The translations under genes and the position numbers were made by a program. DNA of 38,159 nucleotides, taken from positions 1 to 38,159 of the IMG/VR virus record IMGVR_UViG_3300032304_000454; one strand, written 5' to 3'. Positions 20,595 through 22,834 of the stretch are shown one piece after another; position 1 is the stretch's first letter; every line of letters starts with the position of its first letter. This DNA is from a virus. The notes beneath the pieces were generated by a model. The model worked only from the letters and a program-made list of their open reading frames with translations, did not search any database and was not told the DNA's origin.

Positions 20595-21524
20595 ATGGCA
20601 ATTTCACGCGCACAACTGCTCAAAGAACTGCTCCCCGGCTTGAACGCTTTGTTCGGTCTGGAATATGCACGTTACGGCGAGCAACACAAAGAAATCTACG
20701 AAACAGAGAAATCTGAGCGTAGCTTCGAAGAAGAAACCAAGCTGGCCGGTTTTGGCGCTGCTCCTGTCAAGAACGAAGGCTCTGCCATCGCTTATGACAA
20801 CGCGCAGGAAGCCTTCACTGCTCGCTACACCCACGAAACCATCGCTTTGGGCTTCTCGATCACCGAAGAAGCTGTGGAAGACAACCTGTACGACAGTCTG
20901 TCTGCCCGCTACACCAAGGCTTTGGCTCGCGGTATGGCTTACACCAAGCAGGTTAAAGCTGCTGGCGTGTTGAACACCGGCTTTGCTGGCACCGCTCTCG
21001 GCGGCGACGGCGTGTCTTTGTTCGGTAACAACTCCAGCGGTACTCGCGTTGGTCATCCTTTGGTTGGCGGTGGTGTGAACTACAACAGCCCAACCACTGG
21101 CGTTGACTTGAACGAGACTTCGTTGGAAAACGCTACCATCCAGATCGCTGCTTGGGTGGACGAACGCGGTCTGTTGATCGCTGCCAAACCAGTCAAGTTG
21201 ATTATCCCTCCATCACTGATGTTCGTTGCCAAGCGCTTGCTGGACACCGAACTGCGTGTTGGTACTGCTGACAACGACATCAACGCGTTGAAGCAGTTGG
21301 GCACCGTCTCTGGTGGCTACACTGTCAACAACTTCTTGACCGACACAAACGCTTGGTTCTTGACCACAGACGTTCCAAACGGTTTGAAGCACTTCGAGCG
21401 TTCTGCTTTGCAGACTTCGATGGACGGGGATTTTGACACAGGCAACGTCCGTTACAAGGCTCGTGAGCGCTACAGTTTCGGCTGGAGCGATCCGCTCGGT
21501 ATCTGGGGCTCTAGCGGCTCCTAA
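20595..21524 (+). CDS. Major capsid protein
   Basis: 309-aa protein placed after scaffold and decoration genes, with a strong AAGGAG and highly biased codons as expected for an abundant protein. N-terminal helices (MAISRAQLLKELLPGLNALF), an acidic E-loop-like part (KSERSFEEETKLAGFG), and late RYSFGWSDPLGIWGS. Probably HK97 fold (inference from size and context; it resembles the Mu gpT-like group). It is followed by a strong terminator. Confidence 0.85.
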   Translation: MAISRAQLLKELLPGLNALFGLEYARYGEQHKEIYETEKSERSFEEETKLAGFGAAPVKNEGSAIAYDNAQEAFTARYTHETIALGFSITEEAVEDNLYDSLSARYTKALARGMAYTKQVKAAGVLNTGFAGTALGGDGVSLFGNNSSGTRVGHPLVGGGVNYNSPTTGVDLNETSLENATIQIAAWVDERGLLIAAKPVKLIIPPSLMFVAKRLLDTELRVGTADNDINALKQLGTVSGGYTVNNFLTDTNAWFLTTDVPNGLKHFERSALQTSMDGDFDTGNVRYKARERYSFGWSDPLGIWGSSGS

Positions 21525-21602: not shown

Positions 21603-22205
21603 ATGGACACCACAAACCTACCCAAGACCCGTGCGGAAGCCAAAGCCTCCGGGGCCAAGTACTACTTCACCGGGGAGCCTTGCAAGCACGGACACATTGC
21701 CCCGCGCAAAACCAAAGGCGCATGCGTTGACTGCTTGAAGATCGAATGGTCGCAAGCGCTGGCAAATAGGGCTGCGTACTTTCAAGAATACAACAGATCG
21801 GAAGCGGGGCAGAAAGCCAAGAAGAAGTACTACGCACGTAACAAAGACGCGGTAATTGCGTCGGCGCAAGCGCGGCCCGACATTGCAAAAAACGCCTATA
21901 AGAAAAAATATAAAGAACACAACCCCGACCTGTACCGCGAGCTTGTTAGCTTGCGCCGTAGACGGTTTCGGGATGCGACTCCTAAGTGGCTGACCTCAGA
22001 GCAACGGATGGAAATACGGTTGAAGTACCGATTGGCCATCGAACTCAGTCGGGCTACTGGTGTGCGGCATGCGGTTGACCATGAAGTGCCCCTGCAGGGC
22101 GAAGACGTTTGCGGTTTGCATGTGCCGTGGAATCTGCGGGTCATCACGCAAGAAGAAAACTTGAAAAAATCGAATAAGCACGTTGACCACCCAACAACAG
22201 AGTGA
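21603..22205 (+). CDS. Free-standing HNH endonuclease
   Basis: 200-aa nuclease with an N-terminal zinc-ribbon-like part (YFTGEPCKHGH and ACVDC, Cys27, Cys41, Cys44), a Lys/Arg-rich middle, and a C-terminal HNH motif (HAVDHEVPLQ followed by NLRVI and ENLKKSNK). Such genes are mobile, homing-type insertions. It is isolated: a terminator precedes it, a TATAAT (21569-21574) lies 28 nt before its start, and a structured leader follows. The start MDTTNLPKTRAEA has AAGG upstream; a GTG at 21564 is rejected as it lies in the terminator/promoter. Confidence 0.88.
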   Translation: MDTTNLPKTRAEAKASGAKYYFTGEPCKHGHIAPRKTKGACVDCLKIEWSQALANRAAYFQEYNRSEAGQKAKKKYYARNKDAVIASAQARPDIAKNAYKKKYKEHNPDLYRELVSLRRRRFRDATPKWLTSEQRMEIRLKYRLAIELSRATGVRHAVDHEVPLQGEDVCGLHVPWNLRVITQEENLKKSNKHVDHPTTE

Positions 22206-22220
22206 TATATTGCAATCAAT

Positions 22221-22277
22221 CCCGGACTTTCCGGTGTATCTGACGGCTCCGGGCCGACGTCATGCAGACAGATACAC
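22221..22277 (+). ncRNA. Structured RNA-like leader
   Basis: The gap between the HNH gene and the next start (22301) has nested inverted repeats. A first hairpin is CCGGA-CTT-TCCGG (22222-22234). An outer 9-bp stem GTGTATCTG (22234-22242)/CAGATACAC (22269-22277) encloses CGGC-TCCGG-GCCG. The CCCGGA at 22221-22226 can also pair with TCCGGG at 22248-22253, making a pseudoknot or a switch between alternative folds. It ends 23 nt before the next ATG. I recognise no known ribozyme or riboswitch. Confidence 0.6.
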
Positions 22278-22300
22278 ATTAACCGCATGAGGAAAATATC

Positions 22301-22834
22301 ATGGCTCAAACTACGTTCCAAGGCCCAGTTCGCTCGTTGGCTGGCTTCATCACTCAAGGCCCCGCCACTGTTGTCAACTTGGCAAACGGCACCAACACCG
22401 TGACTCTGGATGTCGCCACATACGCTGGCAAAACCATCCGTACGAACGACGCAACTCTGGTCATCACCTTGCCCACCATCAACACCACAGCTAACCCTGT
22501 GACTTCTGGCCCCGGCCAAGACCCCAACACCGTGAACAACGTCGGCACCAGCTACACCTTCGTGGTGGAGACTACCGCTTCCGCTTGGGCTTTGAAGACC
22601 AACGGCACCGACAAGTTCATTGGCTCGATGGTGATGGTTGACACTGACAGCTCTGGCGCTGTGACTGCTTTTGCCCCCGGTGCTTCTAACGACGTCATCA
22701 ACTTCAACGGCACTACCACTGGCGGTATCGCTGGCTCGACCGTGACTGTGACTGTGTTGGCCGCGAATAAGTACATGGTGACTGGCGTGGCTCTGGCCTC
22801 TGGCTCTGTTGTCACCCCCTTCGCTGACGCTTAA
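22301..22834 (+). CDS. Structural protein, 177 aa
   Basis: MAQTTFQGPVRSLAGFITQG, followed by Thr/Val-rich beta strands (TVTLDVATYAG, STVTVTVLAANKY). Likely a head decoration or head-associated protein. AGGA upstream of the start. High codon bias similar to the capsid gene suggests abundance. Confidence 0.72.
   Translation: MAQTTFQGPVRSLAGFITQGPATVVNLANGTNTVTLDVATYAGKTIRTNDATLVITLPTINTTANPVTSGPGQDPNTVNNVGTSYTFVVETTASAWALKTNGTDKFIGSMVMVDTDSSGAVTAFAPGASNDVINFNGTTTGGIAGSTVTVTVLAANKYMVTGVALASGSVVTPFADA

Follow-up and report, generated by a model that had tools for sequence, protein, structure and literature searches.

A widespread, doubly pseudoknotted mRNA leader upstream of a spike-like gene in freshwater and marine phages

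What occupies the short interval between an HNH-type gene and a virion gene in the IMG/VR virus record IMGVR_UViG_3300032304_000454, and what could it do for the gene behind it? The record, analyzed as one stretch of 38,159 bases (the window), carries terminase, portal, capsid and tail-fibre genes. The leader in question, of about 95 bases, lies between the HNH-type gene (21603–22205) and a gene for a 177-aa protein (22301–22834). The initial annotation had described a structured leader with nested stems and a possible pseudoknot. Comparison with relatives bears this out, and we conclude that the element is a real, widespread structured mRNA leader, probably cis-regulatory and new to Rfam 15.

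Architecture of the leader and its genomic neighborhood

The compact RNA covers approximately 22221–22292 and consists of five helices, P1, P2, P3, pk1 and pk2, with its 3′ end at the Shine–Dalgarno (SD) sequence. The initially reported 9-bp perfect outer stem (22234–22242/22269–22277) and enclosed GC hairpin (CGGC 22244–22247/GCCG 22253–22256) were both found, and CCCGGA can indeed pair with either TCCGG (22230–22234) or TCCGGG (22248–22253). In addition, pk2, P3 and promoter-like −35/−10 sequences are present; given pk2 and P3, the element extends to the SD at about 22292 and is larger than first noted. The features of the locus are as follows.

20595–21524, + strand: major capsid protein gene (Pfam PF25209, 1.8e-13; PHROG 371)
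21603–22205, + strand: HNH-type (endonuclease VII-like) gene, inserted between the capsid gene and the leader (PHROG 1035, 5.8e-15)
22183–22188, + strand: −35-like TTGACC within the HNH gene, close to its 3′ end, 17 bases before the −10-like hexamer; a consensus match only
22206–22211, + strand: −10-like TATATT, considered together with TANNNT spacing among relatives
22221–22226, + strand: pk1 5′ strand CCCGGA; in 264 of 289 distinct leaders, this strand and the P2 loop of the same leader are perfectly complementary
22230–22234, + strand: TCCGG, with which CCGGA can pair instead, a pairing enriched in no subtypes but I and III; TCCGG overlaps P1 by one base (22234)
22234–22242, + strand: P1 5′ arm GTGTATCTG; eight P1 pairs at E=0.01 in the covariation test
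22244–22256, + strand: P2 hairpin (CGG 22244–22246/CCG 22254–22256), one pair covarying at E=0.01 and one invariant; its loop is C22247 plus TCCGGG 22248–22253, the pk1 3′ strand
22260–22265, + strand: pk2 5′ strand TCATGC, with its own complement downstream in 284 of 289 leaders
22266–22268, + strand: conserved AGA between the pk2 5′ strand and the P1 3′ arm, found with AC 5′ of P2 and GAC 3′ of P2 in 74 of 76 leaders
22269–22277, + strand: P1 3′ arm CAGATACAC, covarying with the 5′ arm
22283–22292, + strand: P3 hairpin (CC 22283–22284/GG 22291–22292), arms changing in concert among leaders; its loop GCATGA (22285–22290) is the pk2 3′ strand
22289–22293, + strand: Shine–Dalgarno GAGGA, overlapping pk2 and P3 in the window
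22301–22834, + strand: spike-like gene, 177 aa, with the constant N-terminal peptide MAQTTFQGPVRSLAGF (Foldseek, VIA-align)

From 5′ to 3′, the pk1 5′ strand is followed by a linker, the P1 5′ arm, an A, the P2 5′ arm, one base, the pk1 3′ strand and the P2 3′ arm; then come AC, at least two bases, the pk2 5′ strand, AGA, the P1 3′ arm, a linker, P3 with the pk2 3′ strand as its loop, the SD and the start codon. In subtype I, to which the window belongs, a tiny frame without a clear SD (MQTDTH, window 22262–22282) starts at an ATG within the pk2 5′ strand. An internal ATG of some kind occurs in 217 of 259 leaders, probably by chance.

Upstream, a capsid-protein homologue precedes all 227 leaders with enough sequence, and an HNH homologue stands before 24 of these 227. 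The mobile HNH gene that the initial annotation placed just upstream is present in the window as an insertion. From the positions of the −35-like and −10-like hexamers, transcription is predicted to begin at about 22218, with pk1 following three bases later. Among the 264 pk1-bearing leaders, a TANNNT hexamer ends 7–9 bases before pk1 in 145 (40, 46 and 59 at the three distances); most other distances account for 0–12 leaders each, distance 12 for 28, and 17 leaders have no −10-like hexamer. It looks as if the mobile HNH gene supplies a promoter of its own to the gene it interrupts. Relatives carrying the HNH gene (e.g., L001, L008, L010, L027) have a similar TTGACC/TATATT pair at the corresponding place, and another promoter-like stretch precedes the HNH gene.

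Downstream, the initial annotation had expected an abundant virion gene. The modeled window protein (mean pLDDT 75; first 20 residues below 50) gave as its top Foldseek PDB match the capsid spike of Pseudomonas phage Pa223 (9ny6_C, E 4.9e-4, probability 1.00, TMq 0.41). VIA-align with this capsid spike yielded Z 9.6 and an rmsd of 2.5 over 98 residues, with tail-spike and baseplate domains tying at Z 9.9–9.2, and a search of the PDB with the spike sequence profile returned one insignificant match. Based on the structural model, the downstream protein is likely a capsid spike.

The relatives of this protein share a near-constant N-terminal peptide, M-A-x-T-T-F-x-G-P-V-x-S-x-x-G-F, followed by a variable body. 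Among 254 distinct complete downstream proteins, those long enough fell into 15 body families by single linkage, a grouping made with the low-complexity filter off, so that families may be over-merged, and on proteins for which the peptide was part of the selection. Two loci (L103:2819 and L119:3584) encode a protein starting with MSVRPSTTQ and are a possible exception to the constant peptide. For the related virus vSAG 37-F6, the accessible text of PMC5490008 describes a hypervariable island that codes for an unknown protein; in this very abundant relative, the island may be the spike gene behind the leader.

Comparative evidence for the fold

The energy of the single sequence is ordinary: the minimum free energy of −21.8 kcal/mol compares with −20.13 (sd 3.25) for shuffled sequences (z −0.51; equaled by 59 of 200 shuffles), as calculated by a program that scores no pseudoknots. 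The case for the fold therefore depends on comparison with relatives. Two sets of leaders were used. For the larger one, relatives were collected partly by fixed core patterns; 460 leaders were placed, rows with fewer than 45 bases before the anchor were dropped, and 289 distinct leaders remained. As these rows were selected on the AC/GAC/AGA anchors and the peptide, conservation of the three motifs is partly by construction here, and the unbiased figure is the 74 of 76 from leaders fetched by protein only. That second set comprises 157 of 160 loci, with two dropped for short upstream sequence, and 76 distinct leaders, among which the anchor was found in 74 (L010 and L027 fail it), pk1 in 72, pk2 in 73 and P1 in 69, with P1, pk1 and pk2 occurring jointly in 66. 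Rows for models and alignments were thinned by similarity, and L478 was omitted from alignment A4 for an extra base.

Covariation, the check proposed with the initial annotation, was then clear. In a tree-based simulation on 141 unique anchored leaders, nine pairs, eight in P1 and one in P2, reached E=0.01, which is the floor of this test, and the best column pair outside the structure had E=1.27. When 41 thinned cores without subtypes I and III were scored, 91.6% of cells paired; the covariation score was 0.718 versus 0.236 in shuffles, none of 500 reaching it, and fell to 0.09–0.14 with the partner slid. The P3 arms likewise occur among leaders in the combinations GTG/CAC, GCG/CGC, CTC/GAG, CTT/AAG and GGT/ACC.

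Neither pseudoknot was used for alignment. For pk1, the complement of the loop 5-mer lies upstream in 264 of 289 own leaders versus 287 of 6936 mismatched combinations (4.1%), so the pseudoknot first suggested as possible is real; for pk2, the figures are 284 of 289 versus 80 of 2312 (3.5%). The exceptions for pk1 are mostly marine leaders in which P2 closes a tetraloop (L326, L331, L336, L338, L340 and similar marine loci); several of these tetraloop loci lie directly 3′ of a G-rich hairpin, without a clear promoter. Among 1062 P1 cells, G-U combinations number 76 versus 8 for A-C, an excess indicating that the sense strand folds as RNA. These sequence comparisons decisively indicate that the fold is real and not due to chance, being kept while nearly all letters change.

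Distribution, subtypes and relation to known RNAs

Searching viral contigs with the protein yielded 80 loci; in the 77 examined (one with short upstream sequence), a recognizable leader stands directly before the gene. Pattern scans with two core variants gave at least 120 stretches each, a third core pattern gave 109, some of them unrelated chance matches, and a marine spike query added 80 further loci. The carriers are freshwater and marine phages, including the cultured Pelagibacter phages HTVC023P and HTVC027P. A tblastn search for other cultured carriers, using the peptide and two other spike types, found none; its one partial match was at 6e-3. The leader was matched in four metagenome-assembled bacterial bins as well, which may be co-binned phage contigs. 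Among viruses sharing the capsid or spike gene, Planktothrix phage Pag-Yong1 has no clear leader of the described type, and in Rhizobium phages the gap is too short for one.

The subtypes differ in almost all paired letters, as the following examples illustrate.

Subtype I (window): pk1 CCCGGA/TCCGGG; pk2 CATGC/GCATG
Subtype II: pk1 CTAGG/CCTAG; pk2 AGTAG/CTACT
Some pelagiphages: pk1 ACTATAC/GTATAGT; pk2 CCTAG/CTAGG; SD inside pk2, without P3
L404: pk1 CCGCA/TGCGG; pk2 GTGTAG/CTACAC

Assignment followed simple core rules; because a number of marine leaders fall into class III, the SD distances for that class are a mixture. A covariance model built without subtypes I and III (R1) ranked the window's leader first at a non-significant level (10.7 bits, E 0.73). 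After addition of five subtype III sequences as a bridge, with subtype I and the window still excluded (R2), the leader became the sole significant match in the 38 kb (35.7 bits, E 4.1e-8). The window's subtype thus joins the rest through intermediates.

The initial annotation had read the two exclusive pairings of CCCGGA as resembling a switch. The alternative CCGGA/TCCGG hairpin is enriched in subtype I (18 of 20 distinct leaders, 2.4 expected) and subtype III (7 of 10, 0.8 expected), rarer than expected in subtype II (7 of 88, 15.4 expected) and close to expectation in marine types (1 of 14, 1.5 expected; 5 of 10, 3.5 expected). With enrichment confined to subtypes I and III, the alternative hairpin can at most be a trait of certain lineages, and the pairing used in general is pk1. 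A two-pairing switch is not supported by these counts as a family-wide trait; what stands of the proposal is the local hairpin in these two subtypes.

One full copy of the leader was found per locus in 402 loci, each before the spike-like gene where the gene was included; neither multiple copies nor use before other genes was found in the loci examined. A structure-only descriptor gave 291 distinct matches in 3.58 Mb, 275 of which precede the constant peptide, and no full match in reversed sequences. The other 16 were inspected by eye: 11 have pk1 and are mostly leaders cut by contig ends or preceding slightly different protein starts, and the other five, two having pk2 alone and three having neither pseudoknot, resemble chance matches. 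An R1 search of 20 whole records found a match in ten, nine with a single one and one with two at its ends; the remaining ten carry subtypes I or III, which R1 excludes, so single copy there rests on the loci examined. In the L080 contig (G009), the leader occurs at 180–226 and 63140–63186, as if in a terminal repeat or circular overlap.

No family of Rfam release 15 matched the window or 16 loci of all subtypes at gathering thresholds, permissive scans of three leaders gave chance-level matches only, and a tRNA/tmRNA scan found none. Among the matches listed in full-text literature searches, no published description of the leader was found, nor is it described in the accessible parts of PMC12753301, PMC9599517, PMC5490008, PMC11598899, PMC2864571 and PMC3014915. 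The manA and wcaG motifs of cyanophages are, in the accessible text of PMC2864571, candidate structured RNAs of marine metagenomes and phages, located in likely 5′ UTRs; unlike the present leader, they precede metabolic and photosynthesis genes. Both are separate Rfam families, and neither matches it.

Proposed control of spike translation and alternative explanations

What would such a leader do? The reading that we favor, with a probability of roughly one half, is a new family of cis-acting, doubly pseudoknotted 5′ leaders that sets spike translation. Transcription would start a few bases before pk1, as the −10 spacing suggests. The 5′ strand would then dock into the P2 loop with P1 closing over it, and the P3 loop would return to pair within P1. 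This would place the end of the folded RNA on the SD, where it may compete with the initiating 30S subunit for the same stretch. Folding would thereby set the rate of spike-protein synthesis relative to capsid protein, the direction of the effect being presumed, and mRNA decay should also be slower with the 5′ end docked.

In each of the 284 leaders scored, the SD begins between −2 and +7 bases relative to the end of pk2, which itself lies 9–19 bases ahead of the start codon in 287 of 289 leaders. With pk2 and P3 reaching the SD, folding of the leader and ribosome initiation should be mutually exclusive, and the fold most likely sets translation. The SD overlaps pk2 in subtype I and part of the marine set; in subtype II it lies 1–7 bases beyond pk2 and is itself unpaired, which counts against competition. 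Moreover, a leader so short must end near the SD, which weakens the argument from closeness. Docking of the 5′ end cannot apply throughout either: 17 of 264 leaders lack a −10-like hexamer, and part of the marine set, with its closed P2 tetraloop, has no pk1.

Known phage and bacterial RNAs offer parallels. preQ1-II and SAM-II are pseudoknotted translational riboswitches that take up the SD; like them, the leader is a small pseudoknotted RNA at the SD of the gene served, although its helix order and conserved bases differ, the gene encodes a virion protein and Rfam gives no match. T4 gp32 binds the 5′ pseudoknot of gene 32 mRNA and represses its own translation, as stated in the accessible text of PMC3014915. 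In both systems, a phage mRNA for an abundant protein carries a pseudoknot in its leader, ahead of the ribosome-binding site. However, gene 32 has one H-type pseudoknot plus an unstructured A+U-rich stretch over the start site, whereas the present leader has five helices with two loop–strand pseudoknots ending on the SD, and any binder of it is putative.

Which protein, if any, might read the leader? The leader is kept with about 15 unrelated protein bodies and hence does not follow the body, which makes a binder in the variable body unlikely and leaves the constant peptide or the capsid protein as candidates. In an improbable refinement, the leader would be an operator for the constant part of the system: once docking sites on capsids are filled, it would be bound by the N-terminal capsid-docking peptide, or else by the capsid protein, and spike synthesis would stop. 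If true, the spike mRNA would sense capsid assembly directly, whichever body is encoded, much as gp32 is titrated by single-stranded DNA.

Alternatively, the leader could act mainly as a stabilizer of the mRNA 5′ end, with translation control secondary: an mRNA beginning at pk1 would have its end hidden by the docked 5′ strand from 5′-end-dependent decay, so that the message for an abundant virion protein would persist. The regular distance of the −10 hexamer from pk1 in 145 of 264 leaders and the window leader's own promoter-like element fit this view, which we regard as possible and on balance unlikely, as it leaves the reach of pk2 and P3 to the SD unexplained. In addition, the marine leaders without pk1 and the leaders without a promoter-like element speak against it.

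An improbable alternative is a riboswitch, in which the near-invariant AC, GAC and AGA around P2 and P1 would form a pocket for a late-phase small molecule that locks pk2 over the SD. A few fixed unpaired bases within a variable scaffold, and the alternative hairpin of subtypes I and III, are what such a design would have; yet the leader precedes only one virion gene, never a metabolic or transport gene in the loci examined, and no Rfam riboswitch matches.

A self-cleaving ribozyme, in line with the ribozyme-like fold suggested initially, is very improbable as well. HDV-like ribozymes are nested double pseudoknots of P1, P2 and P3 with a P1.1 pair and a catalytic C in J4/2. The leader resembles them in the order of its first three helices (pk1–P1–P2 for HDV P1–P2–P3) and in a hairpin loop pairing back to the 5′ strand, an order that alone does not define the family; self-cleavage 5′ of pk1 would yield the end made by the promoter in other relatives and could serve the 17 of 264 leaders without a recognizable −10. 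However, pk1 has 5–7 bp, the P2 loop holds a single base besides pk1 and hence no room for P1.1, the bases just ahead of the P1 3′ arm are AGA in place of a J4/2 that contains C, and a kissing P3 follows downstream. The aligned leaders contain no visible equivalents of HDV P4, P1.1 or J4/2, no Rfam ribozyme family matches, and in most leaders the promoter already sets the 5′ end there.

Conservation at the DNA or coding level only, as a recombination arm or binding site for swapping spike bodies or as an overlooked reading frame, would suit a constant leader and peptide joined to about 15 body families, but is refuted as a full explanation by covariation of paired positions while sequence is lost, by the G-U bias that marks single-stranded sense RNA, and by closed frames (none open throughout, 7, 63 and 83 of 259 leaders stop-free in the three frames, lengths in all three classes modulo 3), and we give it hardly any weight. 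Body swapping may nevertheless profit from constant ends.

Together, our results describe a strongly covarying RNA with two pseudoknots that is carried by very abundant kinds of phages: both cultured members of the HTVC023P type have it, a type that, in the accessible text of PMC12753301, accounts for about 7.59% of virome reads. Exchangeable bodies behind an unchanging leader and N-terminal peptide also point to a cassette for expressing capsid spikes, and the two cultured pelagiphages with the leader make the question of its role testable.
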